Assembly (NCBI GenBank): GCA_032433595.1
Contig: JASWJB010000171.1
Location: forward strand, 1-64,000
Length of the DNA: 64,000 nucleotides
Direction of reading: 5' to 3'
DNA from: Conoideocrella luteorostrata
Lineage: Eukaryota; Ascomycota; Sordariomycetes; Hypocreales; Clavicipitaceae
Positions 4,555 through 52,657 of this stretch are shown here, one piece after another; the first letter of the stretch is position 1; each line of letters opens with the position of its first letter. Under the pieces are notes generated by a model that saw only the letters and a program-made list of their open reading frames with translations, made no database searches and had not been told where the DNA came from. The translations under genes were made by a program, and so were the position numbers.

Positions 4555-7500
4555 TCAGAGTAGCGACCAATCAAGGCGCTTGGTGAGACTCTTGCGAGAA
4601 TACAAGCTGAGTCTGACACCGGCACCGCAGTACTCCGTATTATTACCAGGGCACAAGAAACTGCACTGTGAGTCTGTGACATTTTTGCCGGGAGTACTGG
4701 CTTGGCTGCCGGCATAGTTCACCTTGTTACCACACCAACACTCTCGGCCATACTCAACACCAGCGTAGTTGTATTTCCAGCAAGTTTGTAAGCACATATT
4801 GATTGTCATATTGACGGAATTCAGAAGCTGAGTGTCAAGAATTCGCCCGTTGTTCGGCTCTGAAACACAGGCATAATACGTAAAGTTGGCATTGCCATTG
4901 GAAATGACTGGCCCGGTCGGGGTTGGTGAGGCTGACTTGGTAGATGAGGTAGTAGTCGACGATGCTGCTGATGTAGTCGTGGCACTGGGGATCGAAGTGG
5001 AGGCCACAGAGCTGGCAGAAGAGCTAGAAGAAGAGCTGGCAACTGAGCTGGCAACTGAGCTGGTGGTGGCAGGTGCAGTGGAAGAAACAGCGGCGACTGA
5101 GCTGAAGGCAGTAGAAGTCGAACTGGTGGTGCTTGAGACTGTGCTGGAACTTGAGGTCGCTGAGCTGGTGGTGGCCGATGTCGAGGCAGAGGATGTTGGG
5201 GCCGAGCTGGGGCTAGTAGAGGCTGAACTGGTGCTTGTGACGGCGCCGGAAGTTGTGGCAACTGAGCTGGTGGCCGAAGTGGCGGTTGTGGGAGATGTCA
5301 CAACAGTGCTGGTCGATTGGCTGCTGGATCCGGTGGCGGCCATTGTGGTTGAGTTGCCGGACGTGGTTGCCGTCGCTGTCGAAGTGGTTGTAGTAGAGCC
5401 GACACTGTTAATTCGGTCATCAGGCAGTGATGGCGTAGCGGACGAAGATGTCGCGACCGATGATGATGTTGCAACAGATGAAGAGCTGATCGAAGTTTCG
5501 GCAACACCAGCCTTATACAACTCCAATCTCACACCCGCTCCACAATACTGTGTCTTATCACCAGGGCACAGGAAGCTACAGTCGGCCTGGTTGGTAGCAT
5601 TGACACTGCCTGCTTGAAGTACGTTGCCACAGTAGCACTCGCGTCCATACTCCACACCGAAATAAGTCAGGCCGTCGCAGAACTTAGCACACGAGTCCAG
5701 AGTCATGCTATCATTTGCATATGTGCGATCCATCAAAGCACGGTTGTTTGTGGCCTCTGTCCAACATCCCTGGTAGTTCCAAGAGCCCACCTTGGCTCTC
5801 CTGTATGGTGCGGTTGGGGTTGGTGTAGAAGAAGTACTTGTGGTAGATGAAGTAGTAATGACAGTGGCTGATGTCGGGTTAGTCGTGGTTGTGTCGAAAC
5901 CAGTCAAGTTGGAGCCAGAGGTGGAGGACAATGATGTGAGTGGCAGGGACGAAGTGGTTGTAGTCATGGTCGTAGTCGTGGTAACTCCGTTTCCAAGCTG
6001 GTAGGCATTGAGACGAGATGGTCCTCCACAATACTCTGTCGAATTGTCGTTGCATGTCATTGAGCAGTCCTTATCAGCGGCGCGAATAGCTCCAGTTCCA
6101 AATGTATTGCCACACCAACACTACAGAATATATTAGCATACCCATCAGACAAAAAGTAGTAGGATCTTCAATTACCTCTCCTCCATACTCCATGCCGGCG
6201 TAAACGTAGTTGCTTGCCTTGCAAGCATCCACGCAGCTCTTGATTGTTTTCTTGTCAGTATTTTTCCCATTGGGCAAGGCGCGACCGTTGGTAGCCTCCG
6301 TGTAGCAACCAATGCTAGAATATCCTGACACGCCAGGATTGACAATAGGCCCTGCAGGGGGAGGCGGTTGCGTAGTATTGCCATCCCACTTCAAGGTGTC
6401 CCCAAAGACAGACATGTAAGTGCCGTCATTGCCATTGTCGCCGTTGCCGCCACAAACTTGCTTCAAGTCACCTTTGCAGTAATAGTTGCAGTTTACGTCG
6501 TCTACTTTGACGCTAGGAATAGTGTTACCACCCCAGCATTCACGCTGATATTGCGTGCCGCAGAAGGTGTAGCCTTTGGCAGAACAGGCTTTGATGCAAT
6601 CTGCGTTGGTCATGGTGTCGTTTGCATAGACCTGGTCAGGCAGCTGGCGACTGGGGGTGTTGTCTTTAAAGCAACCAGCGTACCTGAGCTGACCTAGGCC
6701 GTTCGGCAACAGTGGTGGTGCTTGTTCTGCAACAGCGTTGCAGAAAAATTGGAAGAATTGCTTTCCGGATGTAGGGTCGTTGGTGTTTATCGTCCACTGA
6801 GCAGTTCCATTGTAGGGCGCAGTGTTCCATTGAGCATATGGAACATTGCAAATGAGCGTGGCGTTAGCACTTTCCCCTGGCGCCAAAGAAGTGCCCTCAG
6901 CAAGATCAACCTGATTCAGAGCTCGGACAAGTCCCGCGACGCCAAACGGAGGCTTAGATACAGTCAATGATAGAGGAACGGCGCCTTGAGGGGCAGCATT
7001 GGTCACACGGAACTTGAGCGACTTGGAGTTGTTCTCTGTCACATTTCCGAAGGTGAAAGGAGTGCCGGGCGTGAATTTTACCCAGTCACTGCCGTCGATT
7101 GTCTGGAACTCGAAGAGTGCCGCGGCCGCAGGGCCAGCGGACGCAGCCACAGAAACAGTCCGGTTACCACCATCTGAGACTATCTTGATGTAGCAAGAGT
7201 ATGTGCCACTTGCAGAGGTGTCGAATTTGACGTTGATGCTGGAAGCACCATTGGGTGCAATTGTAGCAGGAATATTCTGGAGCGTGAACCTGCCAACCAC
7301 CAAGTCACTTTGGCCGTTCCAGCTTTCGAATGGCCCATCAGTGCTGGTGGTCGAGTAGAGCACGGAATTTACTGTGAGCAATCCATTACCCAAGTTGGAG
7401 ACAAGGACTGGTTCCGAAACCCCGTTTGGATTGTCTCCAGTAACAGACTTCTTGAACGTCAGGATGATGGGACTGAGCTGGAGCAGAGGGCCGGCACTTT

Positions 7501-9532
7501 GTCCTGTGCCGGTAAGACGAGCGTGGGTGCTGGTGCTGTATCCGCCAATGCCATTTGTGGTATTTACAAGGATATCGTTGGATGACAACCCAACACTAGT
7601 TGGAGAGAATTTGGCATTGACGGTAAACGTATCATCAACGGCCATCTGCAGTGGCGTAGTAGGCAGGCCTGAAATGGTAAAGTCTTTGCTTTTGGCGTCG
7701 TTGAGCTCGATTCCCGTCACAGTCAGAGCAATGCGGGCCTTGCAAGTAACAGGCTTGGTCAAGCTGTTGTTCCTAACATTGACGGTTCCAAAGTCCACGG
7801 GCGAAGTGCAGTTGAGAGGAACATTAACTGGCGAACCGAAACCGTACACATAACCTTGAAGCGTCCCAACGTAAACAATACCGTCGCCAAAGACAGGTCG
7901 AGTAAACTTGGTGACGCCGGGAATATTGAAGGATTGGATCATATTGAGGCTGCCAGCCTTGGGTACGGCGTCGTAAATGCGGAGGCCGAGACCTTGGACA
8001 TCGGTAACCCACAGCAAACCGGTACCTTCTTGGCCGTTTAGAGACGTAGTCGCGCCGTGGCTGACACCGAGAATATAAGAATTACTGGTAGGGGCCTCGG
8101 CGACCTTGGTAAAAGTAGGAACGCCGCCGTTGCAGGAGAACTTGAAGACGATGGTCGGGTACTGGATAACGTTGATGTAAATGTACCCACCTTCCAAGGG
8201 GTAGACGCCGGCGCCAGCATACACGGAGTTCAGATTCTCATAGACGTAGATGACATCGTCCAGACCGTCTTTACCGTTCTTATAGCCACCGAGGTTGTCC
8301 AGATTGAGAAAATATGTCTTGCCGCTCTTGCCCGTCACAACACCGATTCTCTTGATTGCCCCACACGAAAACTGGCTGGGGAGAATCTCCAATGGACTCG
8401 TTCCCAAGTCCTTGTCTGCACCATCCAATGCTCGTTTTTCCCAGGGCATAAAGAAATCAACCAATCGAAGACTTCCGTCGCCATTGATTGTCATGTGCAG
8501 CGCAGCCTCTTCCAAAGAAGTCGGCGGATTGAAGCCCTTGATGGGGACGTCGGCTTGCTGCGAGGCGTATCCGTTTCCAGTGGCCAAGAACAAGGAGCCA
8601 CTGTCATCCGACGCAATACCACCACCAGACATCCAAATACCGCCGCCCGGGGTGGTGTTGGGGATGCCCTGTCCTTCGGTAGCCCATTTTTCGACAATTT
8701 TACCCGTTGTTTTGTCCCATCCAATGATCCACCCGGTGAAGTTGTACTGCACACAGTGGGATGCAAAACCGGCATAAATGAAGTTGCCGGCTTGCAACAG
8801 CCCGGGGCGCTGGTGGTGAATGCCACCTTGGAACATACGCACAGGGGAGTTGTTAGCAATCAGACCCTCAAGGTCGACAGGGAAGTTAGGACGCTCTGAA
8901 AGGTCATTCACGTCGAGAGCATGGACGTAGTATCGACCGGCAGCCTTGCCCTGGGCCTTTGTGCCTCCATTCTGGTCGACATACGTCTTGGCAGTCAAGT
9001 ATAAGGTATCGGTGGTTGGGTCAATGACACCGGTGGCAGTAATGCCAATTGTCGGGTTGATGTCGACACAGCCGTCCAGATCAGCAGTCAGGAAGGGTAT
9101 ATGCAGATTTCGCGACGCGACAATCAGGCCCGTCTTCGCATCGAGCTTATATACGTTGTTCTGGGTCGTGGCGAAGTACACGAATTGCTTGTCGCTGCCG
9201 GTCGGGGTGTAGACCAGAGGTTGCGAAAAGACCTGTTCTGCTTGGCCAACGTACATGCCTGGCAATGTTGTGCGGAAGAGTTGCCCAAACTGATTGCTTG
9301 CAACTACGGCAGGGTCCATATTATGGTTACTGCGCAACGTCTTTGTTAGAAATTCCATAAGAGGCTTCTTTTCCGTCCATGATAGCATGTTAAGATCATT
9401 ATCAAACCGGACTTACGTTTCGTAGCCGGCTCTCGAGTTGCTTCCTCCCCAGGTGATTGTGTCTGTATCGGCAATGCCATTGACCAGGCTGACGAAGGCC
9501 GTGGCCGTGATCAATAACGCACGCAGAGCCAT
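4555..9532 (-). CDS. secreted multidomain protein: PQQ-like propeller, ASH-type domains, four WSC domains
   Basis: Three exons (9532-9417, 9329-6176, 6120-4555) encode 1611 residues. The 87-bp and 55-bp introns are framed by GT..AG and restore domain continuity; the second interrupts a WSC domain exactly before its CWCG motif. Residues 1-20 form a signal peptide (MALRALLITATAFVSLVNG). About 60-540 is a beta-propeller of the quinoprotein dehydrogenase-like type, 540-900 holds beta-sandwich repeats of ASPM/SPD-2/Hydin type, and WSC domains lie near 922-1015, 1040-1133, 1203-1295 and 1502-1601, each with the cysteine pattern and YxGxEYGRECWCG-like core. A ~200-residue Ser/Thr tract separates WSC3 and WSC4 and is probably heavily O-mannosylated. 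There is no GPI signal or membrane helix, so it is likely extracellular and carbohydrate or cell-wall binding. Enzyme activity of the propeller is not shown; it may only bind. Confidence 0.88.
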
Positions 9533-42562: not shown

Positions 42563-44823
42563 TCACGTTTCCTCTGGTGCAAAAAAGGCACCCAGTCTGC
42601 AAAGACCAACATGTTAGACAAGCAACAAGTATATGATAGGTGAGATCGGCACTACTCACCCAATGATACAGTAGCAAACGCACATCAAAGCACCCTTCAA
42701 GCCACTAGTTTCGAGCACGCTGCTCGTATTATTAAGAACCAACAAGTTCACAAGCAGCACCGTCCCAAAAAGAATGACCATCTCAAACACATTAAATGTC
42801 AATGCAAAGTCAACCTTGAGGGCCCAGCCCGCGATGACGACCAGTGGCGCCACACACAGCGCGATTTGGATGGAGGATCCCACGGCAACTGCAATGGCGA
42901 GATCTAGCTTATCGTTGACCGCAACAGCGACAACCGTGACATATTCAGATATATTGCCTACGATGGGGAGGATGATGAGACCAATGAAAGCCTTGGACAA
43001 GCCGATTTGCTGCGTTACCTCGTCGATAGTCGACACGAGCAGATCCGCGTTCATGGACATGAGAACCGAGGCTATTACGAGCACAAACAGCGAGATTAGT
43101 AGTTCTACTCTGGAGCTGATGCGCCTGGGAGGTTGATCGTGGTCATAATCATGCTGCAAACGATTATTTCTTATGAGGTGCAAGGATGCCAAACCAGATC
43201 TGGCAAAAGTCCGCTCACCACTGATGGAGGAATCGCGACTCAGGGGCCGTATGCTTGACGTCAATGATATTGAACGGGAATGAGCACGTGGTTGCATCGA
43301 TGCTTGGTGATAACCTGACGTGGATCGAGATGTTTCTGATCCAGAGCTAAGACGGCGCCCACGACCATGACCTACGGAACTGTCTTGTTCTTCGTCATCG
43401 GTACCTTCATCGTCGGCTTTAGTTGTGGCAGAGCCGAGTTCGAAGCGGTCGGCTTGCTGAGTTGCCGACTCTTCGGCCAAGTCAGCCGAGTCTTCATCTG
43501 CGAAACGGATCGTTCGAGGAGGAAGTACGATCGAATTAGTGCGGTAGCCCGCGCCGAGTCCTCGCCGAGGTTCGCTGTGCTGATTTCTCTCTACATCCGA
43601 CTGTGCTCTGGTGTACTCATCCTCGGATGGAGCCTTGTTGTGCCGTATCTCGTAGATGAAATATACCACATATATGCAGAGGATTAGAAGGGACGACAAT
43701 CTCGTCATTTTCAGCACAACGCGGGCAGTTTCTGCATTGTTACCGAAGGCTCGATCAAATGCGCTCTGGATGAGGCTGTTAGAGACAACAAAAACAATAA
43801 CACAGCCGGAAAGGTCTTACGGGCATGATGAACGTAAATACCGATACGAACAACAGGCACGCCAAAAGCTGCGCCTCCGTGGTGTTGTAAAGCGTGAGAG
43901 ACTTGCTGGCGCTGGCTGCCAATAGAGCAGAACCAAGGATCAACATCAAATTGACGAGAACTGAGCCTAGGAGAGAGGCTTGAACGACCCGAAATTGATT
44001 GTCTGCCAGCGCGACGCTATTGTATAGTCAGCGGCAGGAGCCTCTACACACCGGGTCGTCGTATGCAAACTCACATCCTAGGCGCGAACGAGTCAGCAAA
44101 TATGTACTATCGTAATGCTTCACATATTTTGTCTTACAATAGTATGAGCTCTACTATATTACCGAGTGTGATGTTCAGCAAGGCTCCTAGTGAATCTCCA
44201 GAGTGGGCGGCAATGCGCTCCGTTGCATCCGTCAACAGTGATGACAGAGGTACAATGGCAATTCCGTTCACAATGAAACTTGCCAGTGGAGTTGTTTCCA
44301 CGAAGTAGCAAGCTAGACCTATGGGAACAAATACCAGTAGCAGGTTTAGGCGAGACGACGCAAGCATTCCGCAGGAGGTGTTGACGGTCTCTCTGTACCA
44401 CGTGATATTTGGTACAGGCTCAAACTCGTCAAAGTTCTCGAGCGTATGAACCGCGGGGGCAGGCTCATACTGTATCTTCGCGAGTTTTTTGTTACGGATC
44501 ATCGATATAGGTTTGAAGTACAGGCGATTGATGCCTTTGAAAGTTTGTTTGAAGACATGTTAGGCTAGCGTATAGTGTCTGGCCATCAACGATAAGGTTT
44601 GTACAAAAGATGACGAACCTTTCCAAAACTTATTCAAGGAAGAATCCGCTCGCTTTTTTTGATCTGTGACAAAGGTTGAGTAATGCAAATCGTTGGATGC
44701 TCCCAGCACAGCGCGGGTCGTACTCCCCCCAAAGACGTCGTCATCATGTCGGTCGCTGGGACCCCAGCCATTGTTGCTGCTGCAGCCATCCGTGCGAGGA
44801 ACTCGATACCCATTATCGTCCAT
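42563..44823 (-). CDS. Ca2+/H+ antiporter, CAX/VCX1 family
   Basis: Six exons (44823-44619, 44534-44138, 44077-44075, 44016-43821, 43765-42660, 42596-42563) encode 646 residues. The two alpha-repeats are clear: SLLTDATERIAAHSGDSLGA to GNIVELI in the N-half, and PIVGNISEYVTVVAVAVNDK to AVGSSIQIALCVAPL in the C-half, with the conserved glutamates in GNxxE. About eleven hydrophobic helices are expected. A ~200-residue acidic, Ser/Arg-rich loop separates the halves. Family members load Ca2+ into vacuoles in exchange for H+. Exon 3 appears to be only GAT (3 nt), which restores the family's usual spacing between VELI and VAL. Intron 1 uses a GTTCGT donor forced by phase and gives FWKGINRLYFKP. The last 34-nt exon supplies GLGAFFAPEET. 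The start could lie further upstream. Confidence 0.9.
44075..44077 (-). other. candidate 3-nt microexon (GAT) of the CAX gene
   Basis: On the minus strand CCTAG, GAT and GTGAGT follow one another. The upstream intron (44078-44137, 60 bp) has GTAAGA, a GCTGAC branch and TAG. The downstream intron (44017-44074, 58 bp) has GTGAGT, a GCTGAC branch and TAG. Inclusion changes the junction from F to LI and keeps frame. Skipping also keeps frame, so frame alone does not prove it; the complete splice-signal sets and the helix length do support it. Confidence 0.75.
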
Positions 44824-46074: not shown

Positions 46075-48750
46075 TCAACCCGGTAATCGAAAAGCCAATG
46101 AAATGAGACTAAGAATATACAAGGGTCTTGCATCTGGGTCGTCTTCCCACATGAGCTTTGGGGAAAGTATTCTTAGCCCGTTTCGATCCCGGCATATATG
46201 CTCCAGAAGGCGTCCCATGCCTCTTGTACTCCGTAACCGCCGTTCCTTTGACCGATCAAGCCACTGACGTTTCTGTTCTGGTGACCATGTACTCGTTGTG
46301 TTGAGAAACGCTAGAATCATGGCAGCCATCCCTACAGCAATAGGTGTTGCTACTGATGTGCCGCTCATTGGGCGAAATCCGCCGCCTAATTTCGTAGGCC
46401 ACTGGCTCCATACATCTTCGCCGTGAGTGATAAAGACGGGTAGAGTTTTGTTACCGCTGGGAGCGAAACGAGAAAGGTTGCCAAGTTCATCACCCGATGT
46501 AACGCAAATTGCCAAGTCTCGGTCTCGAGCTGGCCACGCTATTGCCTCTCGATTGCTGTGGTTAGCAGCTGCAGCAAAGACTATGATGCCCTTGTGATTC
46601 GCTTCTTCCAAGGTATTCGTCAGGTCGTATGAGCTTTCATAAGAAAACCCTAGCGAGAGATTGATGATATCAACACCTTGCTCTATGGCCCATTGCAGTG
46701 CCTATTTGCAGTCTTGTTAGAAGGGCACATACTTAAAAAGAAGTTGCTCTTAAAATGAAAATGAAAATAAATACAATAAAAATATAAGGACTGAGAAAAG
46801 AAGAGAAGAAAGAGAAAACTTGGATTCAAAAATAGCGGACGATCCACTCAGCCTACCTCTTGTACAGGGCGTCTAGTCTTTCTTCTAACACCTTCTTCCG
46901 TGTGGCTGCCTTGTTTCGTCCGTTGTTGGTCTTCTCCTAAGCTCGTTTTGGCAATATACAACTCGGCGCGCGGGACGGTGCTCAGAATGATGCCCGCAAT
47001 ATGCGTACCATGGCCGACTAAATCACTCACATCTTCTTCTTCTCCAGGGCCGCCGACAAAGTTTCTGTATGCTTTGATCCTTTTCCTTTGTGGCACTTCA
47101 GGCAGTCTCTTGACAGCAGCATTTCCGAGCTTCGATGTACGCCTCGCTGGGCGCTGGAAGTCTTCGTGCTCAAGGTCTATGCCTGTGTCAAGGATGGCAA
47201 TTTTTACGGGACCAGACCAATCGGGACCATGGCTCTTTCTGCGGTCATCTTCGGGACTCCATTGGATTTTCTCGTACCATGTGCGCTCTAAATCCGAAAA
47301 AAGCTTCTTTACGTGTTGCGCGCTTCACAGGAGTGAGCATGACGTCGTCAAAAGGAGCAGCTGGGGCTAACTAACTTCTTGGGAGAGGGGTTGGAAGCTT
47401 CACCCCTTGTTGCGTCGCTCAGAGCGTAGAGTTCACCTGCTAATTTAAGCACAGGCTATTTCAGATATCCATAATTGACGTACCTTCTGGCTCGGCGTTC
47501 CACCCTGGAGATGGCGCTCGATCATTCTTGGAACCGTCTGGAACCGGCAATTTCTTACCATTATCGACGGGTTTATCGTTGAGTCTAGGGACTTGATCAC
47601 TGGGGACGTGACGAAAAGTAGGTAGTAATCCAGGAATCGAGAGGCCAGACTTCATTGCCAGCAGTGCCGCACTGTTGCCATCTTTGTTCTTCAACATGAC
47701 GTTTGCTTTGCATTGCAACAACGTACGAACAGCATCGCCATGACCGTGCTCCGCAGCAAGCATCAGAGGCGTCCAGTCCCTTCTAGCCTTGCAATTGACC
47801 TCGGCACCATGGTTAACAAGTATCAATATTTGTTCAGTGAGGCCGAGTTTGGCCGCAACGTGTAGTGGGCGATACAGACCCCCGGGGCTTTTAGCCTCTC
47901 TCAAATATGGATCCATATGCAAAAGATATATGACGGCTCCTCTTAAGTCCTTCTCTACAGCCCTGTGGATGGCTCTGGGAAGGTCCGGGTTGTTTTTGTC
48001 ACCATCAATACAGGTGATGAACTGTTGATTGGCGTCGGGTACCCAGCAATTGAGATGATGCTTAAACATTCCCTCTCCTGCATTTAGAAGCTCATATATA
48101 AGATCACGCGGCGACTCTCCGTTTCGATTCGTGACATACATCGACGCACCGTGGAAGCGAAGGAATGAAATTGCAGCGCCGCAACGGGCCTTGACTGCAC
48201 AATGTAGGGGCGTGTCACCATCGGCTGTGGCGACATCAACTCTGGCACCATGCCATAAAAGCTGCAAGAGAGTGGCCGGAGATTTTAATTCTGCCGCAAC
48301 ATGAATGGCAGCTAATCCTGCCCTATCCCCGTCTCTAGCGATCTCAGCCTGCGCGTCAATGGCGACATTATGCTTCAGGAGGATCTTGACGGTTTCGGCT
48401 TGGCCAGCTTGGGAAGCGAGAATAAGAGCGGTCCATTTTGCTTTCGTTTTAGCATTCACGTCTGCACCACTTTCGAGAAGGGTGGTGACGATGGCGTTGA
48501 AGCCAAGCTGCGCGGCATTTTGCAGTGGTGTGCGGTTTTTTTTCTTCCCAGCTTTGTCCCTTGCATTGAGACAATCTTCGCGATACAAAGCCAGGAGTTC
48601 TGCAACAGCGCCATGCTTTTCTTCCAAGACGGCGAGGTGGATTGCTGTTCCCCTGTCATCGCGCCTCTTATCGGGGTCCAATTTGTTTTGTTTGAGAAAG
48701 TCCGACAAGGCTTGAGAGACCGGCCTTGCTTTTAGGTCCGGTTCAGGCAT
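46075..48750 (-). CDS. ankyrin-repeat / subtilisin-like (S8) serine protease fusion
   Basis: Four exons (48750-47484, 47436-47376, 47322-46857, 46701-46075) encode 806 residues; introns are 47, 53 and 155 bp, all GT..AG and in frame. Residues ~30-400 hold about eight ankyrin repeats (for example TALILASQAGQAETVKILL, TPLMLAAEHGHGDAVRTLL). Residues ~475-780 are a subtilase domain with the triad Asp488 (ILDTGID), His547 (GHGTHIAG) and Ser714 (GTSVATP), plus the oxyanion Asn in AANHSN. There is no signal peptide or I9 prodomain, so it should be an intracellular protease whose ankyrin part senses a partner or folds over the active site. It is divergent from a gasdermin-like gene 406 bp away, the pairing known from HET-Q2/HET-Q1. 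The likely job is cleavage of that gasdermin; this is inference. Confidence 0.9.
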
Positions 48751-49156
48751 GATGTCTGTCTGGCCCAGCTTGCGTCAGTGTGTTGACAAGCCGCAGGCGT
48801 CTGCGCACTCGCTATCTGCGCAGACAAGACGTTTTTAATCGTCGACTGATGATGGAAGACACCGATCGCCAAAATTGGCCAATGATGGATGCGAGCTCAT
48901 GTAAGAGTCTGTTTCTATTCCTTGGCTAACTAGTTTTCGGTTGCAGGGGGGTTTGGAACCCCGCATGGTGAGGCTGACATGCATATCTCCGGATCAGCCC
49001 AGCAACTGATGCAAGTTCGAGACAAATTTTTTTAACGGTCAGTAAATGAGCTGTTTGCAGGGAATCATTCCGAAACCCTTGGTCAAAAGAGGTGTATTTT
49101 GCGCCTAAAATAGCTCGGCCCGCACCAATCGCTGCGAAAATTGCGCAACAAGGAAG
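48751..49156. promoter_or_regulatory. bidirectional promoter protease / gasdermin
   Basis: These 406 bp contain everything between the two divergent start codons. There is no TATA box I trust. The short shared promoter would allow co-expression of the pair. Confidence 0.5.
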
Positions 49157-50014
49157 ATGCCGTTCGGGAACAAGTCCAAAAAGTACTGGATTGTTCCGCA
49201 AGAAGCTCTTTCTCCGGATGATCTCCAGCTCGGGAGTCTTTTAAAACGACCAAATGACCCGATCGACCTGCTCAACAGAAATGCTGTGGAGCAAATCGAG
49301 GCCAAGAACATTGTTAAGGAACGCGAGCAAGTCACCAAAAGCCTAAATGATGCCATATCGAATGGATTCGGCATCAATTTTGAAGCTTCGTCCATATTGG
49401 CTGCCGTTTTGGGAGCATCACCAGACGTAGGCGCTGAGCTGTCAAGAAATAAAGGAGACACCATCGAAGCAACAAGAGTCAGAGCGCAGCACTTCATCCC
49501 CCCAGAAGAATATATGAACAAGGCACTTTCTACGCAGCAGGTTGTCGAATATACCAGGCAATCATTCTTCACTGCTCCGGTTTACATGGTTGTCGGTGTA
49601 GCTGTCGCTAGGACGTTGGTCAGAACAGCGAATAATTCTCGCAACACGGAACTCAAGGGTGGGTTTGGGCTTGGCCCCCCGGGCACTGGGATCGAGATAT
49701 CTGCGAACATATCCGGGAATCATGGAAAGGAGTCGGTCTATCAGGATTCGGTAGATGAAGATGTAGTTCTGGCGTATCGTTTGCGGCGCTTTCGCTACTC
49801 CAAAGTCCGCGGTCGACATATCAAGAAAAAGACAGACGAAACCGGTCACGCAATGTACCGTTACATCTCAGAGGATGTCAGCTCTGATGAGGAGAAAGAG
49901 GATCCAGAATATAATCCCGTCTTTTCGTACTTTGAAGACGACGATGTTGCTGCAAGAGATGTAGGCATGGAAGGCTTTGTCGAGGCCGGTGAAGAGGAGG
50001 AAGAGGACGAATAG
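49157..50014 (+). CDS. gasdermin-like pore-forming protein (fungal HET-Q1 / RCD-1 type)
   Basis: One exon, 285 residues, in the size range of fungal gasdermins. The N-terminal part has features I associate with the family: an aromatic-rich start (KYWIVP), an LGSLLKRPNDP block, HFIPPEEYM near 112-120, and a hydrophobic strand FFTAPVYMVVGVAVA (137-151) followed by variable strands. Residues 208-225 are strongly basic. The tail from about 237 is strongly acidic and ends in a Glu/Asp run. In characterised fungal gasdermins a protease removes a short C-terminal peptide and the N-terminal domain then makes membrane pores that kill the cell. No signal peptide is present (cytosolic). The family call rests on pattern plus the neighbouring S8 protease and needs a profile search. 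Confidence 0.75.
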   Translation: MPFGNKSKKYWIVPQEALSPDDLQLGSLLKRPNDPIDLLNRNAVEQIEAKNIVKEREQVTKSLNDAISNGFGINFEASSILAAVLGASPDVGAELSRNKGDTIEATRVRAQHFIPPEEYMNKALSTQQVVEYTRQSFFTAPVYMVVGVAVARTLVRTANNSRNTELKGGFGLGPPGTGIEISANISGNHGKESVYQDSVDEDVVLAYRLRRFRYSKVRGRHIKKKTDETGHAMYRYISEDVSSDEEKEDPEYNPVFSYFEDDDVAARDVGMEGFVEAGEEEEEDE

Positions 50015-50417: not shown

Positions 50418-52657
50418 TTACTTCTGAAGTGCACTTAATGCCCCCTCGCCGTGATGCGTTGCAGGTTCCGTCTTTTCACTCGCATGCAGCTCATCCTCCG
50501 CAAATTGGTATAATGGGGGGAATGGGCTGACGTCTCGGCGCAAGATGTGCTTGTTGAGATACCAAGGTAGCTTCCGGAGATAGTAGGCGCTGTGGTCGCG
50601 GTTCTTCATGCTGAACACACTGTCGAGCTCCTCAAGTGTGAGGTTCTTCGTCTCGGGCAGCATGAAGTAGCAGAAGACCCAGCCGAACAAATTCCAAGCA
50701 GCATACCAGCAGAACGCTCCAGTGTTCCCGTATGCTTTCAACAGGGGAGGCCAACTCAAGCTGATGATGAAATTGAATCCCCAGGTGATGGCCGTGCTGG
50801 AAGACATACCGATGTCGCGAATGTGCAACGGAAATGCTTCAGCGCTGTACGTGAATGGCACAGGACCCTCGCCTGGTGAGTAGACAACCATGAAAAGGTA
50901 CAAGCCGGTGGTGACGCAAGCCAGCTGCGCACTGCCAGGAACGAAAAACGAAAACCCGGTGAACAGCATGCAGAGAGCCATGAGCGGGAAGCTGGTCAGC
51001 AAAAGGTTGCGTCGGCCGAAAGTATCAATGGTGTAGATGGCTGGAATGGCAAAAACCCAGTTGATCAGACCGCCGCCCATGGATGCCAGCAGAGCCTGGG
51101 AGCGGCTATAACCGGCACTTTCGAAAATGCTGGTTGAGTAATACGCAATCACGTTGACTAAATGAACTGCTTAGCTATTGCTATCTCATACTCGGATGCT
51201 TGAAGGAAGCAGGAAACGACTTACCTCCACAAAATTGCTGCATAAACTATGATGATAAACGGCATTTAGCTTACAGATGCCAACGAGATAAAACGTATCG
51301 CTGTCAAGTGTACTCACCATGGTGAACCATGCGCTCTGGGCAGCACGTCGATTTCGACGCACGGTGAAAAACTCCTTCAAAAGATTTCGACCTTCTCGTT
51401 CCTTTTGCTCAACATGAAGAAGTTTGTATGCGTAGTACATGTCGCGCGTGGCCTGTATGGGATGGTGACGAAGACGTAGAAGGGATCGGAGCGCCCTGTC
51501 ATACTTGCCCTTCTCCATATACCATCTAGGGCTTTCGGGACAAAGGTAGACTTGCAGCATGACAAACAAAGGCGGAATTGAGGTCGAGCCCAGCATCCAT
51601 CTCCACTGAGAGTGTTCTCCCAAGAAGTTTGTATTCTGGAAAGCTACCGAGGCCACGAAACCAAGGACGATTCCGAACGCTGTCCACATCTACAAATGTC
51701 ATGTTAGCGGAAAGCCGATGTTGACTCTTCGATCGTCGTGCTTCTTTACACACCTGCCACATCATGGTGAGCGCTCCTCGGATAGTCTTGGGAGTGCACT
51801 CGGCAGCGTACACTGGAGTTGTGCTAGATTTGGCTCCAACAGCGAAGCCGAGCATGAATCGAGCGGCAAGCAAGTTGCCGTATCTAGACGCGGGGTTAGA
51901 TCTTCGTAATTGTTATTGCATGTAGACGAAATGGTTAGCTTACGAATCTGCAACCGCCATCCATATGCCAGTGACTACAGAAATGAAACAAGAGATGAAA
52001 ATTGTGAACCTTCGGCCTCCGATCTTGTTCAGAAATGGATTTGTCCAACAGCCGATGAGTGCAGAGCATAGATAGGGGGCACCATTCATGAGGCCCTGCA
52101 TGATAGGATCTGTTATGTGAAACTCCTGATAGTAGAACACCTGAGATGAAACATTAGCTTCTACTCTCCAGTGTGGAGTGAAAGGGATTTGGTATTAATT
52201 CGATCAGTCATGTGCTTACCTGTGCGCCATTGACAGCAGTCTGATCCATTCCCTGGACAATAGCAGATCCAGCACACAGTGTGCAAAGAAAGTACAGCAT
52301 AAATGGCTGGCTCCAGCGATGAGTTACCTCACGCCGAAGAATGGCCTTTTCGTCTTCATCCAGTGTGTCGACCTGTTCGAATCCATTTTTGGAATTCATC
52401 ACCTGTGCAACGACAGCTCCTTTGCGGAAATGCTCACGATGGTCGGCGAGCCCTTTCTCATCCACAAATGCGTCCACATCAGCAATCAATTGCTCTCTGG
52501 TTAGTCCAGAGAGAGGATTCCGCAGTAAAGCAGCTGTGGATTGTTTTCGCTCATTGGTGTAGTTTTCTGACTCGTCACCATTGCTAGAAGAGTTGCGATG
52601 GAATGCAGCCCTTTCGCCGGCGTTGGGAGATTCTATGTCTTCCCTTGGAGGAGGCAT
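50418..52657 (-). CDS. MFS sugar transporter with long N-terminal cytosolic region
   Basis: Six exons (52657-52220, 52140-51944, 51883-51754, 51689-51318, 51246-51225, 51157-50418) encode 632 residues. About 110 polar residues precede helix 1 (FMLYFLCTLCAGSAIVQGMDQTA). Signature blocks include NKIGGRRF, RFMLGFAVGAKSSTTPVYAAE, PESPRWYMEKGK, QQFCGVNVIAYYSTSIF, DTFGRRN and PETKNLTLEELDSVFS. The QQFCG motif is encoded by a 22-nt exon bounded by a TAG acceptor and a GTAAGT donor. All introns (60-79 bp) keep phase. By family it is a plasma-membrane sugar or sugar-alcohol porter; the substrate is unknown. It is convergent with the gasdermin-like gene and probably not functionally tied to it. Confidence 0.93.

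Follow-up and report, generated by a model that had tools for sequence, protein, structure and literature searches.

What would a fungus do with two divergent genes, one for an ankyrin-repeat protein with a subtilase (S8) domain and the other for a small gasdermin-like protein? The pair in question occupies positions 46075-50014 of the window, the 64,000-nucleotide stretch of Conoideocrella luteorostrata DNA analysed here (contig JASWJB010000171.1, positions 1 to 64,000), which comes from a contig of 90,907 bp in a genome of 46.4 Mb. The host belongs to the Clavicipitaceae (Hypocreales), and its draft genome announcement presents it as a pathogen of scale insects (PMC12352038). The locus is read here as a two-gene, pyroptosis-like death module in which an ankyrin-gated protease would activate the neighbouring gasdermin by cleavage and so cause cell death, with a probability of roughly 0.8. 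The observations behind this reading are the gasdermin homology and predicted fold, the intact catalytic residues, the divergent adjacency, the location of 12 of 13 gasdermin-like loci of this genome near S8 matches, the joint presence of gasdermin and protease genes in several genera, and conservation at the predicted cleavage position and in the tail.

The two genes

49157..50014, + strand: gasdermin gene, HET-Q1-like, 285 residues, single exon without intron (match to HET-Q1 chain 9uv9; predicted fold)
48751..49156, no strand: divergent intergenic region of 406 bp, presumed site of both promoters (from coordinates)
46075..48750, - strand: ankyrin-S8 protease gene of Q2L type, four exons, 806 or 807 residues (exon model; public protein P0038)
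48750-47484, 47439 (or 47436)-47376, 47322-46857 and 46701-46075, - strand: protease exons (exon table)
47644..48648, - strand: ankyrin-repeat region, about residues 35-369 (Pfam Ank_2 in five stretches, 1.3e-36; helices in the model)
46246..47207, - strand: Peptidase S8 domain, spanning intron 3 (Pfam PF00082, residues 483-751, 1.1e-27; genome search; triad)
47189-47187, 47012-47010 and 46356-46354, - strand: catalytic Asp, His and Ser codons (exon table)

The gasdermin frame comprises 301 open codons, a run expected by chance at about 2e-7 given the local base composition; translation from the ATG at 49157 yields 285 residues, and the stop codon ends at 50014. Residues 9-233 match HET-Q1 chain 9uv9 in a phmmer comparison (expectation value, E, 5.1e-14), that is, the protein is homologous to a proven fungal gasdermin. 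The best matches of its predicted structure are solved gasdermins, with RCD-1 (8jyz, 8jyx, 8jyy) at the top. A Pfam scan of the protein (P0001) returned nothing above the cut-off (best DUF3822, E 0.11), and HET-Q1 itself is likewise unmatched. The sequence-only reading of this DNA had proposed a 285-residue gasdermin-like protein from its N-terminal features. That the likeness is confined to such features is now ruled out by the sequence match and the predicted fold, which is gasdermin-like rather than unlike a gasdermin N-domain. By homology and model, 49157-50014 is a gene for a fungal gasdermin of the HET-Q1 type, and pore formation by its product is predicted. Another 36 proteins match P0001 at 44-64% identity. 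One of them, P0011 from Purpureocillium lavendulum (61% identical), is labelled 'dynamin family protein' at its source, a probable misannotation judging by its similarity.

The protease gene runs from an ATG at 48750 to a stop codon ending at 46075, with introns of 44 or 47, 53 and 155 nt. The public record (P0038, QQS21_007927) has 807 residues, while an intron acceptor 3 nt downstream gives 806 residues and a triad of exactly D488/H547/S714. Under this acceptor the length, coordinates and numbering first proposed for the ankyrin-S8 protein are correct. The alignment favours the 806-residue form because all the aligned relatives lack the extra Ala just before GEL. A 774-residue gene model with the wrong acceptor for intron 1 was dropped and replaced by the one that agrees with the public protein.

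In 807 numbering the catalytic residues are Asp489, His548, Asn646 and Ser715; D, N and S are each found in 18/18 aligned rows and H in 17/18, the lone exception (P0053) being a sequence that looks misread around this position. The structure model of the protease has a mean predicted local distance difference test score (pLDDT) of 71.0, with most of the ankyrin part confident and the S8 part variable, and the best 50 Foldseek matches are ankyrin-type entries only, uninformative on the S8 part. Across 15 long relatives, the S8 domain is the best conserved part, with a mean pairwise identity of 0.66, against 0.53 for the ankyrin region and 0.45 for the linker that precedes the interdomain motif described below. 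Neither protein has an evident secretion signal, as had been proposed, judging by hydropathy (no predictor of signal peptides was used): the top 19-residue means within the first 58 residues are 0.94 for the protease and 0.31 for the gasdermin. The head-to-head arrangement likewise holds, with the start codons 406 bp apart.

Predicted cleavage position, tail and interdomain motif

49856..49858, + strand: Tyr234 codon, counterpart of HET-Q1 F238 and predicted cleavage site (alignment)
49859..50011, + strand: predicted C-terminal inhibitory tail, 51 residues, net charge -19, with conserved F256, F259, D263, G273 and F274 (alignment)
47411..47437, - strand: GELYALSDA, a conserved motif between the ankyrin and S8 domains, residues 424-432 in 807 numbering (alignment of relatives)

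The cleavage (P1) residue of HET-Q1 is given as F238 (PMC12881547). At its counterpart, position 234, 34 of the 37 aligned gasdermin rows have Y, two have F and one has G, so that the position is aromatic in 36/37; in a wider gasdermin set the equivalent is aromatic in 18/19. The 21 columns after Tyr234 are poorly conserved (the commonest residue occupies 16-62% of rows), and further on F259, D263, G273 and F274 are invariant (37/37); the segment that contains them is aligned to the HET-Q1 sequence PVFKEF. A cut at Tyr234 would release a piece of 51 residues and 5.9 kDa. The net charge of the last 51 residues ranges from -10 to -25 across the 37 rows, compared with +1 for the 40-residue tail of HET-Q1. 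From this charge an electrostatic element in tail inhibition may be inferred.

The protease carries a conserved feature of its own. Between the ankyrin and S8 parts, the third position of the GELYALSDA motif is aromatic in 16/18 aligned rows, and the motif is possibly a candidate processing site. Inspection by eye of eight paralogous frames did not show it ahead of their S8 Asp motif; six of these frames extend upstream for fewer than 62 residues, too short to reach the place that it occupies here, and the negative is not decisive.

Gasdermins beside S8 proteases in this genome and in other fungi

A genome search with the gasdermin as query found nine loci, all of them within 10 kb of an S8 match and eight within 3 kb. 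Sequence this close (10 kb) to an S8 match makes up no more than 3.5% of the genome, giving a binomial p of 8e-14. With further queries the number of gasdermin-like loci rose to 13 (C171, which is the present locus, and C88, C30, C269, C492, C23, C291, C221, C203, C5, C105, C71 and C4), 12 of them no farther than 10 kb from an S8 match; this second count was obtained by reading the places of the loci against the S8 genome matches, and the binomial p covers the first nine loci only. Genome matches are weak at C4 (E 0.25, 0.017) and have E 0.013 and 7.2e-6 at C5, and both loci match a gasdermin profile at the locus level. The C71 locus is a fragment (G000:C71:130330-130755) with an in-frame TGA, near a 510-residue ankyrin frame. 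The sequence-only reading had stated that fungal gasdermin genes often adjoin protease genes, which agrees with these counts and with reviews in which some 80% of fungal gasdermin genes have a protease gene close by, in a two-gene gasdermin/Q2L cluster (PMC10989679, PMC10197012).

The S8 neighbours differ in what accompanies the protease domain. In 9/12 (C88, C30, C269, C492, C23, C291, C221, C203, C5) DUF7580, a domain of unknown function on which a literature search found no paper, lies in the S8 frame or the preceding one; the two domains share one open frame in C492 and C221, and fusion is presumed for the other seven. Among the 12, an ankyrin-S8 protein was seen only in C171, and no other domain was found for the neighbours in C105 and C4, in each case within the frames scanned. 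The gasdermins of C30 and C269 are the closest paralogues (49% identical) and their S8 neighbours are also the most alike among ten pairs, which would fit a duplication of the entire cluster. This insect pathogen has roughly twelve gasdermin loci close to S8 matches, one of them of the ankyrin-S8 type in the frames scanned.

Similar pairs appear to exist in other fungi. A search with the 774-residue gene model gave 722 matches, the best 22 of which (P0038-P0059, the protein itself included) are taken as protease relatives, a term that for both genes refers to similarity; the lower rows among the 120 matches listed are ankyrin proteins without S8. Pairing in other species was judged by contigs of equal printed length, with agreeing species names in eight pairs, and not by coordinates; 30 of the 37 gasdermins entered the comparison, seven from short contigs being left out. 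On this basis, 11/22 proteases, the present pair included, have a longest contig equal in length to that of a gasdermin relative, and the other 11 are uninformative, each row giving one representative contig. The named pairs come from Purpureocillium lavendulum, Moelleriella libera, Fusarium sp. MPI-SDFR-AT-0072, F. torreyae, F. austroafricanum, F. lateritium, Stachybotrys elegans and Clonostachys rosea, species that we take to be Hypocreales, and two more lie on contigs of 12,165 and 29,877 bp. In two pairs the gasdermin and protease locus tags are consecutive (NW762_003432/003433; ACHAP5_006279/006280). Because the genes are kept together over such breadth, gasdermin and protease probably function as a unit; co-occurrence over several genera points to this, and it is compatible with allorecognition too.

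Around the pair itself, the nearest long frames, at 42656-43816 (-) and 50418-51170 (-), match the sodium/calcium exchanger and sugar transporter families. Farther off, at 4555-9412 (-), WSC domains occur in two long frames, one of 521 and one of 1112 residues.

Proposed mechanism, rival explanations and known systems

In the proposed module, the S8 protease, which has no evident secretion leader, would be kept quiet by its ankyrin domain, or this domain would sense a cue. Once activated, the protease would cut the neighbouring gasdermin after about Tyr234 and remove the acidic inhibitory tail, and the freed N-terminal domain would oligomerise into a membrane pore and bring about cell death. 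The role of gate or sensor is suggested for the ankyrin part because of the domain architecture and of a published model that derives het-Q from a rearrangement after which the sensor was constitutively active (PMC10197012). What activates the sensors in fungal gasdermin pathways is described as a major open question (PMC12881547). A sensor, a cleavage position and a tail conserved over several genera turn it into a specific, testable case, namely Tyr234 and one ankyrin surface.

A much more specific version can be formulated, and it is offered as speculation that we consider improbable as a whole. The locus would be a stable, vertically inherited hypocrealean death sensor and not an allorecognition locus, with an ankyrin domain that reads a conserved cue. 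The protease, with a single aromatic specificity, would cut both Tyr234 and its own GEL(Y/F)AL(S/T)DA motif, freeing itself from the ankyrin gate, and the conserved acidic tail, absent from HET-Q1, would hold the gasdermin off.

Several observations weigh against the death module. Confidence in the gasdermin model is modest (mean pLDDT 62.2, predicted template modelling score 0.55, residues 217-254 and 274-285 below 50), and its fold matches have low template modelling scores, at most 0.46 by query. Ustilaginoidea virens (P0014) has Gly as its predicted P1 residue, and with a tail charge of -19 here against +1 in HET-Q1 the mode of inhibition may differ. The contig of the C71 fragment, which is probably a copy that has decayed or been orphaned, is without an S8 match. 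The mirror-tree correlation over ten paralogous gasdermin/S8 pairs, a test of co-evolution (r 0.65, p 0.003; r 0.62, p 0.004 with rounded distances), drops to r 0.27, p 0.12 when one of the two recent duplicates, C30 or C269, is removed and is not robust.

The same chemistry could serve allorecognition, with the pair or one of its members polymorphic or idiomorphic and incompatibility arising at hyphal fusion as in the het-Q system of Podospora. HET-Q1 is indeed a relative, and het-Q is thought to descend from just such a gasdermin/protease cluster (PMC10890737). Unlike the idiomorphic het-Q genes, however, both genes are intact here in one genome, and they occur together in several genera, which leans towards a general sensor. 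Some fungal recognition proteins have highly similar repeats, whereas no two of the ankyrin repeats here are nearly identical (42% in the best ungapped self match over 33 residues). Coming from a single isolate, these arguments are weak. According to one review, nearly all fungal gasdermins are without an allorecognition role (PMC12881547). An allorecognition locus appears unlikely in the present case.

A gasdermin activated by a partner variant, with the protease as an unrelated neighbour, is a very remote prospect. RCD-1 of Neurospora crassa, the best structural match, is reported to act by heteroallelic pairing and to be free of control by cleavage (PMC12881547); yet the sequence favours HET-Q1 over RCD-1 (E 5.1e-14 vs 0.02), the aromatic P1 position and the tail motif are common to HET-Q1 and the gasdermin here, and gasdermin and protease genes co-occur in other species. 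That the two genes merely serve housekeeping or degradation and take no part in cell death is hardly credible in view of the gasdermin family and predicted fold and of the gasdermin-like loci near S8 matches genome-wide.

The two-gene death module remains the preferred reading, and the pair is a member of a described class, that of a fungal gasdermin with a HET-Q2-like protease, ankyrin-bearing ones included. The protease shows three features of Q2L proteins: an intact S8 domain, a gasdermin gene within 10 kb (406 bp) and a sensor-type ankyrin module. Proteases of this group have an S8 or a CHAT domain, and many of them, though not all, are reported to carry sensor repeats of the ANK, TPR or WD40 kind. 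The sequence-only reading was right to see a gasdermin/protease pair, the gasdermin being recognised by sequence and predicted fold and its neighbour being an S8 protease such as has been described next to fungal gasdermin genes. Its choice of precedent and its suggestion of a possibly undescribed architecture have to be given up. In Podospora, het-Q1 and het-Q2 are reported to be idiomorphic, one taking the place of the other (PMC10890737), and not a neighbour-encoded cooperating pair, so the right precedent is the gasdermin/Q2L cluster, and ankyrin repeats are named in Q2L proteases by three reviews (PMC10989679, PMC10197012, PMC12881547). No discussion of this locus or its hypocrealean relatives was found in the literature searched, which was covered in part, and no paper on a Fusarium gasdermin was apparent by title or abstract start among the matches listed. 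Three points are of value here: the co-occurrence of the pair across several genera, the specific predicted cleavage residue and the acidic tail. The primary paper on HET-Q1/HET-Q2 and the Q2L proteases is that of Clave et al. 2022 (PMC8851545).

Compared with these systems, the gasdermin is closest to HET-Q1 of Podospora anserina (PODANS_7_10775, PDB 9uv9), which is of the same family by sequence and of similar length (278 vs 285 residues); both proteins have an aromatic residue at P1 and end in a short tail in which a PVFxxF motif can be aligned. HET-Q1 differs in sequence (28% identity), tail charge (+1 vs -19) and tail length (40 vs a predicted 51 residues). RCD-1 shares the gasdermin pore fold but matches weakly in sequence (E 0.02) and reportedly acts without cleavage. 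The DUF7580 and S8 genes of the nine other loci resemble the protease in having an S8 domain near a gasdermin, with DUF7580 in the place of the ankyrin repeats. HET-Q2, compared here by description, has 388 residues (PMC10989679) and is idiomorphic with het-Q1, whereas the protease of C. luteorostrata, which like the reported ankyrin-bearing Q2L proteins adjoins a gasdermin as an S8 subtilase, keeps a large ankyrin domain.
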